A DNA stretch of 38,344 bases from contig JAGWWP010000019.1 of NCBI GenBank assembly GCA_018970325.1, positions 1 to 38,344 on the forward strand, in the 5' to 3' direction. Shown one piece after another: positions 29,782 to 38,344 of this stretch; position 1 is the first letter of the stretch; every line of letters begins with the position of its first letter. The position numbers and the translations under genes were made by a program. Source of the stretch: Cyanobacteria bacterium REEB446 (GTDB lineage Bacteria > Cyanobacteriota > Vampirovibrionia > LMEP-6097). A model generated the notes under the pieces. It had not been told where the DNA came from and did not search any database. It saw nothing but the letters and a program-made list of their open reading frames with translations.

Positions 29782-29958
29782 ATGTCAGATGAGATTCTCG
29801 ATGCTGAGTCTAGTACATTAAATAAAAATCTAGGTCCTATTGATCATTTAAGGCATTTGCTTAAAATAGGCTGGGAAGCTAAAAGCCCATTGATACAGTC
29901 ATTTATTATAAAATATGGTTTAGAGAGAGAATTAAAGCAAATCTTGGATGACAGGTAA
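29782..29958 (+). CDS. Small conserved-looking protein (58 aa) overlapping the Xer-like gene
   Basis: An ATG at 29782 opens a 58-codon frame ending in TAA at 29956-29958, starting MSDEILDAESSTLNKNLGPI and continuing DHLRHLLKIGWEAKSPLIQS. The second half is amphipathic helical (YGLERELKQILDDR). It overlaps the next gene by 11 bp, which suggests translational coupling. There is no homology I can name, so the call rests on codon continuity and position. Confidence 0.5.
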   Translation: MSDEILDAESSTLNKNLGPIDHLRHLLKIGWEAKSPLIQSFIIKYGLERELKQILDDR

Positions 29959-30820
29959 TTCAGAAACTAATCTTGAGCTTTTAGAATTTTTTCTAGATTT
30001 TCTGAAAACTAAATCTAGAAAGTCTTTGGATGCCATATCTTCCATTAGGCGTGATTTAGAGAAGTTTATTGAATATCTATCTATAAATAAGCTAGAGCTA
30101 AATGCTGAATCTATTAGAGGTTATCTAGCTTATCTCCAAGAGAACTATAATTTAAGCACGTATAAAGTTAAGCTATCAAGTTTAAGGCAGTTTACTAAAT
30201 GGCTAAATTTAGAAGATAACCCTTTCGATGGAAATCTAACTTTAAAAGCCACTCCAAATGAGCCTGCTGAAGATTTTTATACAAAAGCAGAACTTTTAGA
30301 AAAATTATCTGAGATTAAAGATCCAATTGAATTACTTTTTTGTGAACTTTTGTTTGAATTATGCTTATCTCCAGCTGAGCTTTTGAAAATAAAAGTTTTA
30401 GATTTTAATTTTGCGACAGCCTCATTTAGATTGCGATTTGGAGCTGCTGCCGAAAATGCTGGACTTGGGCTGCGAGAGCCGCCTAAGCTTACCGAAATAA
30501 AGTTATCAGATGGTTTAGCGCTGAGATTAAAACAGTTTTTAAAAATGAAAGAAGGACTTAGTTTAGATGCAGTCATCTTTACTGGAATCCCTGAATTAGA
30601 TTCAGAAGTTAAAATAGCTAAGTTATTAAAGAAGCATGATATTCAGGCTAAGAAATTAAAACGCAGTCGCATAGTACATTTACTTGAAGACGGTTTAAGT
30701 ATTCAAGCTTTAGAAAATAATTTAGGTATTAAAGTTCCAGCGAACTACTTATCATTAGCTAAAGAGACTAAAGACTATAAACTATTGAAGGCTTTTAAAG
30801 AGTTTCATCCACGAGCTTGA
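29948..30820 (+). CDS. XerC/D-like tyrosine recombinase homologue with lost catalytic residues
   Basis: Residues about 1-95 fit the SAM-like core-binding domain (FIEYLSINKLELNAESIRGY) and 110-290 the catalytic fold. Active recombinases have an Arg in TGLRxSEL, but here the site reads FELCLSPAELLKIKV (Arg lost). The HxLRH box reads KKLKRSRIVHLL and LGH reads LGIK, so the His residues are gone. The Tyr remains in ANYLSL. The beta-hairpin that normally carries the catalytic Lys is replaced by AENAGLGLREPP, the degenerate repeat R8. The 290-residue length is otherwise normal for Xer. It is probably inactive as an enzyme. Confidence 0.75.
   Translation: MTGNSETNLELLEFFLDFLKTKSRKSLDAISSIRRDLEKFIEYLSINKLELNAESIRGYLAYLQENYNLSTYKVKLSSLRQFTKWLNLEDNPFDGNLTLKATPNEPAEDFYTKAELLEKLSEIKDPIELLFCELLFELCLSPAELLKIKVLDFNFATASFRLRFGAAAENAGLGLREPPKLTEIKLSDGLALRLKQFLKMKEGLSLDAVIFTGIPELDSEVKIAKLLKKHDIQAKKLKRSRIVHLLEDGLSIQALENNLGIKVPANYLSLAKETKDYKLLKAFKEFHPRA
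30449..30483 (+). repeat. Degenerate repeat copy R8 inside the Xer-like gene
   Basis: GCCGAAAATGCTGGACTTGG and the following CTGCGAGAGCC match R4 at 23 of 33 positions and sit in the same reading frame. They encode AENAGLGLREP, compared with DENAEIGVREQ. This is an old or diverged copy if the family assignment is right. Confidence 0.45.
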
Positions 30821-31518: not shown

Positions 31519-31830
31519 ATTAGCATTTTACGCTAAGCTCTCTTAATCAGTCAATTAGCCCGTGCTTTATTAAGCTTCATTGAGAGATGATTCAATCTAG
31601 CTTGCAAGCTAGTAAAAAATGGGGAGGGCTGATTAATGGTGTTCTTGGCTGTGGAAGAAAAATATGAAAAAGATATAAATAGGCCTATCACATAAGTGCT
31701 ATAAAACAAAAAAAACTCAGTTTCCTGAATCTCATCTGAAATTTTAAATTTATTTGATAGAGATATTATGCCCAGTTTTGAGGTTTTTTAAACATGTTGG
31801 TAAATAAGTTTACAGATTATACTATTAGTA
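31519..31830. other. Intergenic region with a 16-bp palindrome
   Basis: No gene of convincing length is seen in these roughly 310 bp. A perfect 16-bp palindrome, CTAGCTTGCAAGCTAG, lies at 31597-31612. The right end holds the promoter of the lipoprotein gene (TATACT at 31818-31823). The rest is AT-rich with no clear structure. Confidence 0.5.
31818..31823 (+). promoter_or_regulatory. Predicted -10 box of the lipoprotein gene
   Basis: TATACT is 7 nt before the ATG at 31831, with TTGGTA 15 bp upstream as a weak -35. There is no Shine-Dalgarno sequence. Confidence 0.4.
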
Positions 31831-32224
31831 ATGATTTTTAGAAAAAGCATCTTAACATCGCTCTCTTTACTTATCTGCCTTATTAGCTTTGGCTGTTCAA
31901 ATAAAGAAAAGCTAGAATCTGTACTTGATTCCTATGTGGGTTATCCTATATCTTCTCTGAAAAAAACAAATGGGTGAACCAAAGAACATCCAAAAGCTTG
32001 ATGGTAGTCAAGCTTATGTCTACGGTTTCTCTAGAATGGTCTACGTTCCAGCAAGTACAGTTGCTAGAACGAACTCTGCTTGCCGTAGTTTGACGACCTT
32101 AAATACTTACGGCGGTTATTATCAAAACTATTATTGCGTATTAAAATTCTTTGCAAATGGCAGTAAAATTCGTTCTGCTACATATGAAGGTAATTCATGC
32201 TTAACCTATGCTAAGCACCGATAG
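31831..32224 (+). pseudogene. Lipoprotein gene, frameshifted in an A7 tract
   Basis: The first frame starts MIFRKSILTSLSLLICLISF and has a lipobox ending SFGC near residue 22, so it is exported and lipidated. It then reads DSYVGYPISSLKKTNG and stops. Removing one A from the seven-A tract at 31960-31966 joins it to a frame that reads QMGEPKNIQKLDGSQAYVYG and runs on to 32224. Together they resemble small lipoproteins with a 'VG.pi..l...G.P' segment. The lesion could be mutation, a sequencing error in a homopolymer, or slippage. Confidence 0.6.
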
Positions 32225-32248
32225 GTAAACCCTCAGTTCATTTTAGAT

Positions 32249-32578
32249 TTGCCTAATCTCTATAAAGTACTCTACGGTGTTGATTATAAAAAAACTAAGC
32301 AAGGAATAAAGATCACCAAGGTAAGAGATGGCAGTCACGCTCAAGATGTAGGTTTGCTTGCAGGTGATTTAGTAACCTTTATTAATAATAAAAATGTAAT
32401 CGGCTTACCAATTGAATTTGCAGATGATCTGTTTAATAAAAATAATCAGATTAATTTAAGAATAACTAGAGGAAACGAAGAAAAGCAGATTTCTATTAAA
32501 AAGACTAAATTTCCTAAAATCAGCCTGTATAAAAAATCTGTTAAAAAATTTCTAGGATACAGTCCTGAAGCGGTATAA
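32249..32578 (+). CDS. PDZ-domain protein fragment
   Basis: GIKITKVRDGSHAQDVGLLA followed by GDLVTFINNKNVIGLP is a PDZ core. It continues to INLRITRGNEEKQISIKKTK, the usual last strands. No signal peptide or Shine-Dalgarno sequence is seen, and the TTG start is weak. The frame is open back to the TAG that ends the lipoprotein (codons from 32225 in the same frame), so this may be the C-terminal part of that gene separated by an in-frame stop. At 109 residues it is a single domain. Confidence 0.6.
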   Translation: MPNLYKVLYGVDYKKTKQGIKITKVRDGSHAQDVGLLAGDLVTFINNKNVIGLPIEFADDLFNKNNQINLRITRGNEEKQISIKKTKFPKISLYKKSVKKFLGYSPEAV

Positions 32579-32704: not shown

Positions 32705-34858
32705 TTATTGTGGGCTGTCGTTCCTGTGTTTTTTCTGATAAATTTGAATTAATTGATTGAAATCAACTTTACCAGAGCCTAAAAGGGGAATTCGTTCAAT
32801 CTGAATAACTTCTTTGGGGATAGATAATTCAGATAAGCCAGCTTGTTTCAATGATTCATTAAGATAGTTTTTGTTGAGATCTATTTTATCAGTGAATAGA
32901 ACTAATCTCTCCCCTTTTTTATCATCAGGGACGTTAATAACTACAAAATGAGAATCTTGGTAAATTGTCATAATTACTGCTTCAATGTAGCTCAGTGAAA
33001 TCATTTCACCAGCAATTTTCGCAAACCTTTTCACTCTACCTACAATATGTAAAAAACCATTTTCGTCAATAGAAACGATGTCACCAGTGTCATACCATTC
33101 GCCACACTTAACTAGAATATCTGGATTATCTTTTAGTAAATAGCCTTTCATTAAATTTGGACCTTGCACTAGTAACTTTTTACCTTCTGAAATACCAGGA
33201 ATATCTTCAAGTTTGTATTGGATACCAGGAAGTAATTTACCAACACTACCTACTTTATTGTTCAATGGAGTGTTTGCTGCAATCCCTGGCGCTGCTTCTG
33301 TTGCACCATATGCTTCTAAAATTCGGACTCCAAATTTATCCATCCATATTTTCCGAGTATCATCTTTAAGTTTTTCTGCGCCAGCAATGGCATACCTAAG
33401 TTTATAAAAATCATAGCTATGAGCTTGCAGAGCATAAGATTTAAGAAAGCTATCAGTGCCATAAAGTATCGTGACATCATTTTGATAAGCTAATTCTGGA
33501 ATGATCCTATAGTGCAGCGGTGAAGGATAGTAGAGAGTCTTAATACCGCAAAGTAAAGGTAGAATCATGCCGCCAGTAATGCCAAAAGAATGAAATAAAG
33601 GTAATGCGTTGAGTAATATATCCTGAGGATTATAGTCAAAACACGATTTAAGCTGATAACAATTTGCTATTAAGTTTTTGTGACTTAGCACAACACCTTT
33701 GGGTGAACTTTCTGAACCAGAAGTAAATAGGATCAATGCCGTATCATCAGCTTTTACCTTAGTGTAATTGGTGAATTTATCTGTGAAGAAAGTCGAGACT
33801 TTATCAAAAAGATTTATTTTATTAATCAAGTCTTCAATATAGATAAATTCAATTCCATTTTCTTGTAATTTAGCGAGAGTTTCATCAAGAGATGCTTGCT
33901 CAATGAATTTTCTAGAGCTGATGATGTATTTTAATTTTGATATCTCTAAGCATTCTTTTAGAGCTTGGAATCCCATGGAGAAGTTAAGCATGACTGGTGT
34001 CTTCTCTGCTTTGACTATAGACCAAAAACTTACTAAGCAAGCAAGCGAATTCGGGATCATCAGACCTATCTTATCTTCGTTACTTAGCTTGTGTTTTAGT
34101 TTAGAGCCAAGAATAATAGAAGAATTAATGAGTTTTTTAAAGCTCAGGGATTTCTTTTCGGCATCTATTGCGATGATTTTATTTATGCCATTTACATTAC
34201 CCGAATCAAGCAATGCTTGATAAAGATTAGTTTCTAGGTTAATGCTTTCAAAGCTAACTCTACTCATTGTTTCATAAAGCGAGTGACCTAAGATTTCTCG
34301 TTTTTCTCTACTTCTTGCTTGGGAATTAAGCTCTAGTTTAAAAGGCTTGTGAACATAAATATTTATTTTAGGAAAAAGAAAAAGTTTCATTACTCCTTTT
34401 AATACAGAGAAGAAACTTCTTTCTGGTCCAGAAAGTGTTACTGGAATAATAGTTGCATCACTTGCGCTTGCAATCAAAGCTGGACCATTATAGACTTTCA
34501 TTAATGAACCTGTCATTGTAAGCCTACCTTCGGGGAAGATGACCGAGTTGTTACCTGCTTTAATATGTTCAATCATTGACTTTGTTGACATAGGTTCAAG
34601 TGGATTTAGCTTGAAAACTGTTATGAGCTTTAAAAATGGTTTAACCCACCATAATTCAGCAACACCAGTGTTGACAGCAAAGCTTAAGTCTTTAGATATA
34701 AAACAAGCTATTAGAGCAGCATCTAAGTATGATTGATGATTTGAAATAATCAATTTTTTATTTGATTGACAATCTTGAAAATTCTCAAGACCGTGTACTT
34801 GAACTCTAAACAAGATTTTAAGTAATAATTTTGATAGTGTGAAAAAAAATGATCTCAT
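32705..34858 (-). CDS. aas: Bifunctional acyltransferase / acyl-ACP (acyl-CoA) synthetase, Aas-like
   Basis: The N-terminal domain (about residues 1-200) is a PlsC-type lysophospholipid acyltransferase with ISNHQSYLDAALI (Hx4D) and VIFPEGRLTMTG. The C-terminal part (about 215-717) is an AMP-forming ligase with ALILFTSGSESSPKGVVLSH near residue 378, EAYGATEAAPG and YDTGDIVSIDENGF. At 717 residues it matches E. coli Aas, which reacylates lysophosphatidylethanolamine using ACP and fatty acid. It is the last gene of a six-gene operon, 15 bp after the SDR-like gene, and may provide acyl chains to the new lipid. Confidence 0.88.
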   Translation of the reverse strand: MRSFFFTLSKLLLKILFRVQVHGLENFQDCQSNKKLIISNHQSYLDAALIACFISKDLSFAVNTGVAELWWVKPFLKLITVFKLNPLEPMSTKSMIEHIKAGNNSVIFPEGRLTMTGSLMKVYNGPALIASASDATIIPVTLSGPERSFFSVLKGVMKLFLFPKINIYVHKPFKLELNSQARSREKREILGHSLYETMSRVSFESINLETNLYQALLDSGNVNGINKIIAIDAEKKSLSFKKLINSSIILGSKLKHKLSNEDKIGLMIPNSLACLVSFWSIVKAEKTPVMLNFSMGFQALKECLEISKLKYIISSRKFIEQASLDETLAKLQENGIEFIYIEDLINKINLFDKVSTFFTDKFTNYTKVKADDTALILFTSGSESSPKGVVLSHKNLIANCYQLKSCFDYNPQDILLNALPLFHSFGITGGMILPLLCGIKTLYYPSPLHYRIIPELAYQNDVTILYGTDSFLKSYALQAHSYDFYKLRYAIAGAEKLKDDTRKIWMDKFGVRILEAYGATEAAPGIAANTPLNNKVGSVGKLLPGIQYKLEDIPGISEGKKLLVQGPNLMKGYLLKDNPDILVKCGEWYDTGDIVSIDENGFLHIVGRVKRFAKIAGEMISLSYIEAVIMTIYQDSHFVVINVPDDKKGERLVLFTDKIDLNKNYLNESLKQAGLSELSIPKEVIQIERIPLLGSGKVDFNQLIQIYQKKHRNDSPQ

Positions 34859-34873
34859 TTAAAAATTCTTTGA

Positions 34874-35554
34874 TTATGTTAACAGTGTATTGATAGCAGC
34901 TAGAATTGGTTTTCTTCCAGCAGATTTCTTTGATTTTAAGGTAGCTTCAACTAGTTCGTCTGCATTTTTAGGCACTTTAACTTTAACTTTCTTTTGCAGT
35001 GCTTCAGCCAGGTTAGCTTGAAGTTTTGAAGGTGCTCGATTAGGAAATATCATAGTCAAAGAAAGGTCTAATTCTTTGTTAGCTTTAAGTTCTCTATACT
35101 TCGCTTCAGACCAAGTCCAAAGTGCAGCTTGAGTAGCACTAAAATTCCCGAGATTTGCTAATCCCACTCTACCATTTTGTCCAAGTAAAACTCCAAGTCT
35201 CCCTTTTTTTTGTTTGTGCATTTTTTCTAAAATTAATTGCATGAGTTTTATGGAAGATAGAACATTTACTTTGAACATTTTTTCAAGATCTTCATCAAAG
35301 ATTGATGCAGAGTGAAAATAGACTTCTATCTCTGTTAATTTTTCTATGATTTGCCAATCAGGATTTAATAAATCAAAATTGACATGCTCGAAATTCATTC
35401 TTTGAGCTTCCGCCCATTCTATAAGTTCGTGTGGAGGGTTTCTAGATAAGGCGATTACTTTATATCCCTTACGCATTAAACTTAAACAAAGCTTCTTGCC
35501 CCAAAGACCACTTCCACCGCAAACTAGAGCTGTTCCACTATTCGAAACTTGCAT
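34874..35554 (-). CDS. SDR-like NAD(P)-binding protein lacking the catalytic motif
   Basis: The N-terminal GTALVCGGSGLWGKKLCLSL is the dinucleotide-binding motif of short-chain dehydrogenases. The expected YxxxK is not found: the equivalent region reads LANLGNFSATQAALWTWSEA, with Phe for Tyr and Gln for Lys. It may bind cofactor without reducing or use another residue. The 226-residue length suits an SDR. Its ATG directly abuts the stop of the methyltransferase gene, so coupling is strong. Substrate unknown. Confidence 0.75.
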   Translation of the reverse strand: MQVSNSGTALVCGGSGLWGKKLCLSLMRKGYKVIALSRNPPHELIEWAEAQRMNFEHVNFDLLNPDWQIIEKLTEIEVYFHSASIFDEDLEKMFKVNVLSSIKLMQLILEKMHKQKKGRLGVLLGQNGRVGLANLGNFSATQAALWTWSEAKYRELKANKELDLSLTMIFPNRAPSKLQANLAEALQKKVKVKVPKNADELVEATLKSKKSAGRKPILAAINTLLT

Positions 35555-36310
35555 TTATTTTTTCACCATTGTTCCAACTGCGAAGAATTCATTTCTTTCT
35601 AATTTTACTAATTCCCAGCCATATTCTTTAGCCCATTCTGTTAGTATTTCTGCTTTGCGTGGAACCAGCTCCCAGTCACCTTTATGTAAATCAATCATGG
35701 TTTTTTTAATCATCTCTAAGTCTGGATGATGTTCCTGAATGGTAAAAACCCATTTTGAGCCTTTTTTTGTAATCTCAGAACCATTTTTAAGTATGGTTTT
35801 AATTTCTTCATCTTTAACCAAGATATCAAAAAAACCAGAACTTACCAATATATCAGCTTCTTGAACAGCATAGCTATCTTTGTTAAATGCATTATGTTCA
35901 ACAAATTTAATATCATGACGACCAGCCTCACTTACTTTGCCATTACCTCTTTGTACTGCTTCTGGCTCAAAATCACCTGCAGTTATATTTGCTTTATCTC
36001 TATCAATAAAAAATAAATATGAACCCATTCCAGCAGCTAAGTCATACAGTTGCGGTTTTTCAAAACTAGCAACAGCTTCTTGAATTTGTTTAATCAAAAA
36101 TTCTCTTCTAGATCGAACGCCATCCCAAACTTCATTTGAAATATACAGTTTATCTAAAAATCTACCAATTGGTCCAAAACCTCTTGGCTTATTTTCATAA
36201 ATATATTCAAGCATGATGCCAGAATCAAAACCTGTTCTCCAACCTATTTTTACGCCATCACTTAACCTGCCTATTGTCTTTAAGAAAATTTTCAATATAA
36301 AATATTTCAT
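35555..36310 (-). CDS. Methyltransferase, PF12147 (Methyltransf_20)-like
   Basis: A class I SAM fold is visible: RREFLIKQIQEAVASFEKPQ, then LYDLAAGMGSYLFFI near residue 97 and ITAGDFEPEAVQRG. VSSGFFDILVKDEEI, later in the domain, is unusual and recalls PF12147. That domain is often fused to hydrolases and sits in lipid gene clusters. The N-terminal 60 residues are basic with a hydrophobic start. AAGGATGG precedes the ATG as a good Shine-Dalgarno sequence. The gene follows the PLP enzyme by 4 bp. It may methylate an amine or phospholipid headgroup, which is inference. Confidence 0.75.
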   Translation of the reverse strand: MKYFILKIFLKTIGRLSDGVKIGWRTGFDSGIMLEYIYENKPRGFGPIGRFLDKLYISNEVWDGVRSRREFLIKQIQEAVASFEKPQLYDLAAGMGSYLFFIDRDKANITAGDFEPEAVQRGNGKVSEAGRHDIKFVEHNAFNKDSYAVQEADILVSSGFFDILVKDEEIKTILKNGSEITKKGSKWVFTIQEHHPDLEMIKKTMIDLHKGDWELVPRKAEILTEWAKEYGWELVKLERNEFFAVGTMVKK

Positions 36311-36314
36311 CTTG

Positions 36315-37373
36315 TTACCATCCTTTTGTTACCATTTTATTTCTTACTTTTGAAAGCCATTTGCAGATTCTCTCTATATCTGATCTGCTGTTGAAAATAT
36401 GAGGGGAGATTCTGACGTAATCACCTCTATGAGCTGTGATGATTTTTTCTTTGTAGCCATGTTCTGTAATTCTCTTGGCATCTTCGGCACCTGCTTTAAA
36501 GCTAACTATTCCAGACCAATTACTAGGGCAAGAAACAACAGGGAAATCCATTTCGAGTAAATGTTCATGTATCAAATCTCTTTTTTCTTTAAGATCTTTT
36601 GTTATAGCTTCTTGACCAAGCTTGAGAAAATAATCTATATTTGCATCAAATCTTGCCAGTGGTGCTGATGCTATCCAGCCAAATTCCCAACCTTGTGCTG
36701 TTTTTTTCATACCAGAAAAACTATCTTGAACATTATTAAGACCCAGCCAAGAGGGGAAATTTGTCTCTAAATTCTCAAGTACTCTTTCACTTAAAATCAT
36801 GACTGCAAGACCAAGACCAGATACCATCCATTTTTGAACACCTGCGCACCAGAAGTCTATTTCTGGTATCCAAGCTTTTTTAATTCCTGCTGATTGAATT
36901 GCATCAACACAGGTATATAACCCAGCTTTATTGGCTAATTTGACTTGCTCTTGCCATGGTCTTTCTATGCCAGTTTGATAATCAACAGTAGATGTCACAA
37001 GCATCTTTGCCGTTGAAAGCTTTTTATCTTCAAGGTCATGAATACTATCAAATTCCACACCAAAACGTTCAAGTTTTTTCCAGCAAAGAACATTTGCTGG
37101 ATAATCATTTTCATCAAAAAGGACTTTATCTCCACTTCTCCAGTCAAGCGCATTTGCTGCAATCGTTAAGCCAATAGTAGTTGATGGTACAAAAGCAATT
37201 TGCTCTGCTTTACAGCCAAAATATTGCGCTGTTTTTTCTCTAAGATGATTTACTTTTTTGAGCCAATCGAGAAGAAAAATATTACCCATGACTTCAAAAG
37301 TGCCTAGGCTAGCTAAGTATGCTCTTTTACTTATTGGTGCGAGTCCCGCATAGTTAGCATAAAGTGGAAACAA
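36315..37373 (-). CDS. PLP-dependent class V aminotransferase-fold enzyme
   Basis: The fold is that of cysteine desulfurases and isopenicillin-epimerase-like enzymes. The N-terminus reads FPLYANYAGLAPISKRAYLA, with TTIGLTIAANALDW near residue 67 and the PLP lysine in DFWCAGVQKWMVSGLGLAVM near residue 180. No catalytic Cys motif of IscS type is evident, so it may be an aminotransferase or lyase. The frame starts with TTG at 37373, 1 bp after the stop of the phosphotransferase gene, so the start depends on coupling. The substrate is unknown. In this operon it could make an amino-alcohol headgroup. Confidence 0.75.
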   Translation of the reverse strand: MFPLYANYAGLAPISKRAYLASLGTFEVMGNIFLLDWLKKVNHLREKTAQYFGCKAEQIAFVPSTTIGLTIAANALDWRSGDKVLFDENDYPANVLCWKKLERFGVEFDSIHDLEDKKLSTAKMLVTSTVDYQTGIERPWQEQVKLANKAGLYTCVDAIQSAGIKKAWIPEIDFWCAGVQKWMVSGLGLAVMILSERVLENLETNFPSWLGLNNVQDSFSGMKKTAQGWEFGWIASAPLARFDANIDYFLKLGQEAITKDLKEKRDLIHEHLLEMDFPVVSCPSNWSGIVSFKAGAEDAKRITEHGYKEKIITAHRGDYVRISPHIFNSRSDIERICKWLSKVRNKMVTKGW

Positions 37374-37374
37374 G

Positions 37375-37971
37375 TTATTTTAATTCTTTTATCTCTTTGA
37401 TTGATCTATAGACTCTAAGTGAAATTGTAACTGCGCAGCCAGCACAAATAATAGGCACCATGGTAAGCCAAACTTGATTACCTTGATAAATTGCAAATAT
37501 AGAACTTATACCTATAATCGCAAGCCTGTCAGTTTGCCCGCATGGACCAACGGCTTGAGTCTTTCCACCAGCGACAAGACCAAGTAAGCCGAGCATCTGT
37601 ACCCAAGATGTCAGAGTAACAATCGTTATAGTCCAGATCCAACCAACGTGAGGTTGAAATGCTATCACAATTAAAATATCTGTAATTTCTCCAGGTAATT
37701 TATTTAAGTAAGCTCCAAGTCTTGAAGTTTTATGAAAGCCTTCTGCAATCAAACCATCAAGAGTATTTAATGTCATTCGCAAAGCTATTGCAAGAAAAGT
37801 AGCTAGCCACATTGATTTAAAAATAAAGTATGCTGCAGCTATACCAGGAATAATTGCAAGTAATGAAATCAAGTTTGGTGATAGCTTAGAAATGCCAGGA
37901 ATCTTTACTAATATATCTCTTAAAAAATATTTAGCTTGATATAAACCGATGTCAATTTTTTCATTCTTCAT
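37375..37971 (-). CDS. CDP-alcohol phosphotransferase-like membrane protein with non-canonical motif
   Basis: The family transfers a phospho-alcohol from CMP to an acceptor alcohol using D(x2)DG(x2)AR(x8)G(x3)D(x3)D. Here the region from about residue 68 reads NTLDGLIAEGFHKTSRLGAY followed by LNKLPGEITD. The second Asp stays, but the first and third are Asn, Arg is Glu, and the last Asp is shifted. I recall related proteins that also have NxxDG and LNE in place of the standard Asp residues, so it may be a real subgroup. There are about five or six membrane helices over 198 residues. It overlaps the upstream acyltransferase gene by 3 bp (ATGA). Confidence 0.75.
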   Translation of the reverse strand: MKNEKIDIGLYQAKYFLRDILVKIPGISKLSPNLISLLAIIPGIAAAYFIFKSMWLATFLAIALRMTLNTLDGLIAEGFHKTSRLGAYLNKLPGEITDILIVIAFQPHVGWIWTITIVTLTSWVQMLGLLGLVAGGKTQAVGPCGQTDRLAIIGISSIFAIYQGNQVWLTMVPIICAGCAVTISLRVYRSIKEIKELK

Positions 37972-38301
37972 AATAATTCTTTCTTTAATTTACTAAGCAG
38001 ATCCTCAATATTATTACCAATGTAAGGTTCATAGAATTTGAACTTAAGTTTCTTGAAAGGTCTCCAGTACTTATTTTCAGCAGGCCAAGCTTCTTTTGTG
38101 CCATTTATTTTCACACCAAGTATAGACCAGTCATTTTTTAGTAATATCTTTAAAAGTCCCGTTTGAAAATCATCTGAAGATCTACTACCACTTGGATAAA
38201 AAAGAAAGGCTCTTCTCCAATTTGAGTGGATAGCGTAAATACGACATGATAAGATTTTTAAATGAATGAGATTTTGTGGGCTTTCAATTTCAATGGTTTA
38301 T
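37968..38301 (-). CDS. PlsC-like acyltransferase, 3' part (interrupted near the window end)
   Basis: On the minus strand the frame ends in TGA (37968-37970), overlapping the ATG of the next gene. It encodes FLFYPSGSRSSDDFQTGLLK, VKINGTKEAWPAENKYWRPF and KFKFYEPYIGN, which fit the second half of a 1-acylglycerol-phosphate acyltransferase. The N-terminal HX4D part is missing. A TAA lies in frame near 38302-38304, so the frame does not continue to the window edge. Either the gene is broken or the last 40 bp are misassembled. Confidence 0.6.
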
Positions 38302-38344
38302 TCAAGTCTGCTTGCGTAGCGGAGGTTGATGAAGAAAGTAAGAC

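Follow-up and report, generated by a model that had tools for sequence, protein, structure and literature searches.

A variant of the ynb-type gene module in Cyanobacteria bacterium REEB446, interrupted by an insertion sequence

The contig JAGWWP010000019.1 of Cyanobacteria bacterium REEB446 (38,344 nucleotides, referred to as a whole as the window) carries genes of an operon that is a new variant of the known ynb-type module and is broken in this genome. The source assembly (genome G000) comprises 2.25 Mb in 97 contigs, of which the window is contig C29. Across two contigs, the complete gene order is a CdsA-type cytidylyltransferase gene (cds), a Rieske oxygenase gene, plsC, a gene for a YnbA-type CDP-alcohol phosphotransferase (CDPOH), a gene for a class V pyridoxal phosphate (PLP) enzyme, a PF12147 methyltransferase (MT) gene, a gene for a protein of the short-chain dehydrogenase/reductase (SDR) fold, and aas. 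We favour, with modest confidence, the reading that the window is the larger part of this eight-gene operon, carrying a ynbABC-type variant, and that its likeliest product would be an amine-bearing, methylated glycerophospholipid.

An eight-gene operon with a ynbABC-type core

Five complete open reading frames were found on the minus strand of the window (32705-37971), separated by 15, 0, 4 and 1 bp, and all five had Pfam family support (Table 1). The first-pass annotation had described a one-way run of six genes (32705-38301). The five complete genes and their spacing agree with this description, but the sixth, PlsC, is only a 3′ remnant. The frame labelled PlsC is bounded by a stop near 38302 and lacks its own start, PlsC homology is found only from 38207 downward, and the stop of the remnant overlaps the CDPOH gene by four bases (ATGA). 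Nor does the run end there, since the contig itself stops, and the N-terminal half of plsC, the Rieske gene and the CdsA-type gene sit on contig C48. Aas, also counted in the first-pass set, is the last gene of the run in the window; it was rejected as a member of the conserved set because the operons of relatives all lack it. The Aas-type protein scored 937 bits against NF005291, under the cut-off of 1349.

The core of the operon (CDPOH, cytidylyltransferase, PlsC and MT) is the widespread ynbABC-type module (E. coli b1408-b1410). In E. coli K-12, ynbA encodes a CDP-alcohol phosphotransferase, ynbB a CdsA-type enzyme and ynbC a hydrolase joined to a PF12147 MT, with ynbD completing the group (b1408-b1411). 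Correspondingly, the CDPOH of the window is of YnbA type, a CdsA-type gene adjoins on C48 beyond the insertion sequence, and the MT belongs to PF12147 and is a homologue of the C-terminal half of YnbC. Neither the window operon nor those of Vampirovibrio contain the Hydrolase_4 partner of the MT, which is present in cyanobacterial operons; it is also absent from the f4 and Pseudanabaena loci described below, implying that it is not a strict requirement for a ynbABC-type module. Usually accompanied by PlsC, the core was found in the f4 genomes, which belong to the class of the window, in other cyanobacteria, and on plasmids of Pseudanabaena, Burkholderia, Moraxella and E. coli.

Like E. coli ynbABCD, the window type has a CDPOH with Asn for the first and third motif aspartates (Asp1 and Asp3), a CdsA-type enzyme and a PF12147 MT, and the cyanobacterial version has a hydrolase, as YnbC does. 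Unlike ynbABCD, it lacks YnbD (a PAP2/DSP phosphatase) and carries genes for PlsC and for the Rieske, PLP and SDR proteins; in its CDPOH, Asp4 and the motif Arg are gone as well, and its MT and CDPOH form separate clades. The short ynb-type loci of Cyanobacteriota (Pseudanabaena plasmid ABRG53d and f4 genomes) likewise cluster CDPOH, cds, PlsC and MT, but they have no Rieske, PLP or SDR genes, their PlsC keeps EGTR and their CDPOH keeps Asp4. The additions of the window clade to the ynbABC core are the Rieske, PLP and SDR genes together with conserved active-site changes. Two further features of the short loci were observed: in f4 loci (L048:1898-2983, L050:8977-10065, L047, L052 and similar) the CDPOH is fused to a C-terminal flavodoxin-like domain within MT-cds-PlsC clusters, and the cluster of plasmid ABRG53d (L058, 4637-7792) adjoins a nif cluster.

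Conserved neighbourhoods and co-occurrence

A search for conserved neighbourhoods, proposed in the first-pass annotation, gave a positive result, the order being kept in Vampirovibrio chlorellavorus and in one cyanobacterial genus; the cluster as such is shared by a few cyanobacteria and by relatives of theirs that do not photosynthesise. In V. chlorellavorus (locus L010; G039 is the genome of L010 or its twin), cds, Rieske, PlsC, CDPOH, PLP, MT and SDR genes stand in the same order, with 47-65% identity and without Aas, and a fused acyl-CoA dehydrogenase/ligase is encoded about 430 bp beyond the operon. Another Vampirovibrio genome, G051, gave no Rieske match and keeps the remaining operon genes. 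Its locus L013 (12145-13233 and 11322-12155) is a natural version of the operon without Rieske: the gene has seemingly been deleted from its place between cds and PlsC, where an out-of-frame fragment remains. Genome G546, from another class of the phylum, has all seven genes in one operon (46-65% identity), which includes an alpha/beta hydrolase gene placed between MT and SDR, and the same hydrolase-containing operon occurs in three further genomes of its genus (four in total). That this gene order recurs both in V. chlorellavorus and in these four genomes from a different class implies more than chance. A contig scan by peptide patterns, which were built from close relatives, found Vampirovibrio alone; the wider relatives came from a separate genome search.

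Among 390 genomes of the class of G546, an MT of the window type (at least 57% identity to the window) was found only in G546, G590, G605 and G621, and a window-type CDPOH (at least 60%) in exactly the same four. The chance of this coincidence is about 1 in 9.5e8 if the two genes are independent; the co-occurrence is weaker once kinship (three families) is allowed for, yet still strong. The distribution of Rieske and SDR matched that of MT and CDPOH in the genomes tested, the Rieske gap of G051 excepted, and both were absent when looked for in the siblings G043, G059 and G479. In two cyanobacterial families beyond the operon-bearing genus, the members found are scattered and still co-occur. 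In G605 the operon genes are scattered, with PlsC-CDPOH and PLP-MT as the only pairs left, implying that the association reflects more than proximity. In G621, decayed (split or stop-bearing) PlsC, CDPOH, MT and Rieske (loci L108, L155 and L156) and SDR are all present, a pattern that suggests joint loss of the whole set.

All eight genes are under purifying selection, with ratios of non-synonymous to synonymous substitution rates (dN/dS) of 0.05-0.16 within the cyanobacterial genus. The window-type sequences formed one clade in trees of MT (support 100/100), CDPOH (100/99) and cds (100/99, if an ordinary CdsA gene recovered from G605 is disregarded). Neither the MT tree, with moderate support only, nor the cds tree groups the window with Vampirovibrio to the exclusion of cyanobacteria, a topology that may point to inter-class transfer.

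Altered active sites and the candidate product

The canonical catalytic residues are missing in both the CDPOH and the SDR protein, which the first-pass annotation had not recognised. The CDPOH motif reads NxxDGxxAE...GxxxNxxxGExxD against the standard class I DxxDGxxAR...GxxxDxxxD. Across all 36 YnbA-type homologues, the window and YnbA included, Asp1 is replaced by Asn (by Ser in one genus) and Asp3 by Asn; in all nine window-type proteins, moreover, Glu takes the place of the motif Arg and Gly-Glu stands where Asp4 would be. In the solved structure of M. tuberculosis PgsA1, the two metals are bound by the four motif aspartates, the last of which is presumed to act as the base (PMC6506517). 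With such class I enzymes (phosphatidylinositol-phosphate synthases and others; PDB 4MND and PgsA1) the window type shares the Pfam family, the DG, A and G residues and the motif spacing, but it replaces Asp1, Arg, Asp3 and Asp4. The SDR has FxxxQ, in 10 of 10 homologues, for the catalytic YxxxK pair of classical SDR oxidoreductases, and has an atypical glycine motif, GGSGLWG. PlsC keeps HxxxxD in block I (NHQSHLD, on the C48 part), and its block III reads SGSR for EGTR (Glu to Ser) in the window remnant and in all seven relatives checked. The dN/dS values given above cover these altered genes too, implying that the changes are maintained and are not decay.

The other sites are intact. The cytidylyltransferase retains the signature SxxKRxxxxKDxxxxxPGHGGxxDRxD, the MT its S-adenosylmethionine-binding motif, and the Rieske protein its CxH...CxxH cluster and D..H..H iron site. 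The PLP enzyme retains the PLP lysine (QKW), the Asp and Gln (DAIQS) and the substrate-carboxylate Arg (VRISPH); these it shares with SufS/CsdB and PvdN, but it scored only about 30-56 bits to each, far under the cut-offs. The labels cysteine desulfurase, 2-aminoethylphosphonate aminotransferase and sterol tailoring (SdmAB) were all rejected, every score being far below the curated cut-off.

The last label bears on an alternative that we consider very improbable, namely that the Rieske-SDR pair acts on a sterol- or hopanoid-like hydrocarbon lipid, which it would demethylate or oxidise in the manner of SdmA-SdmB, the sterol C-4 demethylation pair, with the other genes serving membrane remodelling only. 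The operon likewise combines a Rieske oxygenase with an SDR-fold protein in a single lipid-related set, and SdmAB is real in cyanobacteria (PMC10202945). However, the Rieske protein matches SdmA at 128 bits and the SDR matches SdmB weakly, at 28 bits, against a family cut-off of 600 each, and the catalytic YxxxK residues of the SDR are gone. In addition, G051 retains the operon without a Rieske match, and the cds-CDPOH-PlsC-MT core would be left unexplained.

A modified phospholipid, as first proposed, is still the best reading of the set, although that proposal counted the broken PlsC, missed the Rieske and CdsA-type genes on the other contig and included Aas. We infer the reactions, their order and the product as follows. 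PlsC-type and dedicated CdsA-type enzymes would supply a separate CDP-diacylglycerol pool, a second CDP-diacylglycerol branch, from which the YnbA-type membrane phosphotransferase would transfer the phosphatidyl group to a small alcohol. The headgroup may be prepared or tailored by the PLP enzyme, through amine chemistry on a carboxylate-bearing substrate, and by the O2-dependent Rieske enzyme, through hydroxylation or oxidative dealkylation, and the PF12147 enzyme would methylate it. The SDR-fold protein may serve to bind a substrate or cofactor and not to carry out ordinary dehydrogenase chemistry; the hydrolase (in cyanobacteria) or Aas (in the window) may trim and re-acylate the lipid. This phospholipid reading draws on the conserved order, the co-occurrence, the ynbABC core, the purifying selection, the intact cytidylyltransferase, PLP and Rieske residues and the CDP-diacylglycerol-forming activity of YnbB (PMC6362211). 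A Rieske step implies oxygen use, in keeping with reports of oxidative metabolism in V. chlorellavorus (PMC4451040).

Several points weigh against it. The strongest is that the CDPOH lacks the proposed base Asp and two more metal ligands of the characterised enzymes, so phosphatidyl transfer may not occur at all. The SDR-fold protein probably does not work as a normal dehydrogenase, and no gene of the set fixes the headgroup. AlphaFold models of the CDPOH and the PLP enzyme, built from two-sequence alignments, had a mean predicted local distance difference test score of only 45 and 47, respectively, and were discarded as too poor for use. Finally, a literature search for the product of the ynb genes or of the window's gene set found none assigned in the papers covered. 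The first-pass statement that no pathway with this exact set was known overlooked the ynbABC-type core.

The altered CDPOH also bears on a second alternative, which we regard as unlikely: the module may make or recycle a lipid-linked intermediate (CDP-diacylglycerol or a pyrophosphate-linked carrier, compare the MPIase precursor) rather than bulk phospholipid, the CDPOH binding CDP-diacylglycerol or performing another exchange. Asp1 and Asp3 are missing throughout the YnbA family, as is Asp4 in the window clade; copies of the module are few and patchy; and overproduction of YnbB raises the glycolipid MPIase while YnbB does not replace CdsA (PMC6362211). YnbD, for its part, complemented none of the lipid phosphatase mutants tested (PMC7413402). 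However, MPIase-type glycolipids require glycosyltransferases, of which the operon has none, and the MPIase route offers no role for the MT, Rieske and PLP enzymes. A bolder form of the phospholipid reading is tentative and in our view doubtful: a new phospholipid class of Cyanobacteriota, in which a CDPOH working without the usual catalytic aspartates would attach the headgroup, and the PLP, Rieske, rebuilt-site SDR and PF12147 enzymes would subsequently modify it with an amine, oxidise it and methylate it.

Interruption of plsC in the present genome

In the present genome plsC is interrupted by an ISL3-family element. With PlsC of V. chlorellavorus as query, the N-terminal half matched C48:136-561 and the C-terminal half C29:37971-38207. 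At the break, matching terminal repeats (GGCTCTTCTCC and GGTTCTTCTCC) each lie directly beyond a duplicated 8-bp target, and the flanks joined without the insert give the open frame GYFLFYPSGSRSS, for which the V. chlorellavorus counterpart is GWLLFYPSGSRHS. The GGCTCTT-type ends and the 8-bp duplication agree exactly with the ISL3 family; the transposase was seen as a C-terminal piece only (33 residues at the end of C48; PF01610, 21.2 bits, slightly below the cut-off of 23). A 126-bp end of the element occurs in four copies in the genome, each at or near a contig end and identical over the aligned bases; the copies are those of a recently active element that also fragments the present assembly. 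The whole operon lies between two directly repeated copies of a gene with a PDZ domain (84% identity over 776 bp), the window copy being frameshifted and the C48 copy intact, which further supports the order of C29 and C48. The repeats may be the pattern left by single-crossover integration of an incoming molecule, or a local duplication may have produced them. A protein with a tyrosine-recombinase N-terminal SAM-like domain is encoded about 2 kb from the operon (29948-30820); it gave no match to the catalytic domain of such recombinases.

The split plsC implies that the operon is probably impaired here, unless another acyltransferase substitutes. A further step would be that the operon is a dying remnant in this genome, gained by transfer, broken by the insertion and without present function. 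In line with this are the exact target duplication in plsC, the four identical ends, the decayed PDZ repeat, the decaying related set in G621 and the lack of a close MT homologue in the other eight genomes of the window's family. However, the five downstream genes are open and keep conserved residues, so any loss must be recent, the insertion may exist in only part of the population, and the role of the intact operon elsewhere would be left unexplained; we judge this explanation improbable. As an interrupted copy of the variant ynb-type operon, the present genome is an example of the module being lost through an insertion.

Table 1. Features of the operon and its surroundings (positions in the window unless a contig is named)
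Feature	Location	Strand	Evidence or remark
Aas-type: PlsC-like acyltransferase + acyl-ACP/CoA (acyl carrier protein/coenzyme A) ligase, 717 aa	32705..34858	-	Pfam PF01553 (Acyltransferase), PF00501 (AMP-binding)
SDR-fold protein, 226 aa	34874..35554	-	Pfam PF00106 (adh_short); aligned to 3T4X
PF12147 (Methyltransf_20) S-adenosylmethionine MT	35555..36310	-	Pfam E 3.7e-41, 141.7 bits (cut-off 21)
Class V PLP enzyme, 352 aa, TTG start	36315..37373	-	Pfam PF00266 (Aminotran_5)
YnbA-type CDPOH, 198 aa	37375..37971	-	Pfam PF01066 (CDP-OH_P_transf); aligned to 4MND
plsC 3′ remnant, from FYPSGSR block III onward	37968..38207	-	5′ side cut off by insertion sequence
plsC N-terminal part	G000:C48:137-567	-	Other half of remnant at 37968-38207
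8-bp target-site duplication TTTCTTTT	38200..38207		Second copy at C48:137-144
ISL3-family insertion sequence end, terminal repeat GGCTCTTCTCC	38208..38344		Other end is C48:1-136
Copies of the insertion sequence end in G000	C48:1-136; C49:8-133; C32:37391-37516; C28:1-118		ISL3-family end
Rieske oxygenase gene	C48:567-1622	-	Same strand as plsC part on C48
CdsA-type cytidylyltransferase gene (cds)	C48:1600-2514	-	Same strand as plsC part on C48; PF01148 E 1.9e-59
PDZ-domain gene, decayed copy	31802..32577	+	84% identity to intact copy at C48:2564-3311

The ynbABC genes, for which the literature gave no assigned product, are present in many bacteria besides E. coli K-12. The partners co-inherited in the window clade narrow the chemistry to an amine, a methyl group and an O2-dependent step, and they indicate organisms in which the lipid could be sought. 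The CDPOH subfamily keeps the fold motif without the catalytic aspartates, which makes its mechanism directly testable.

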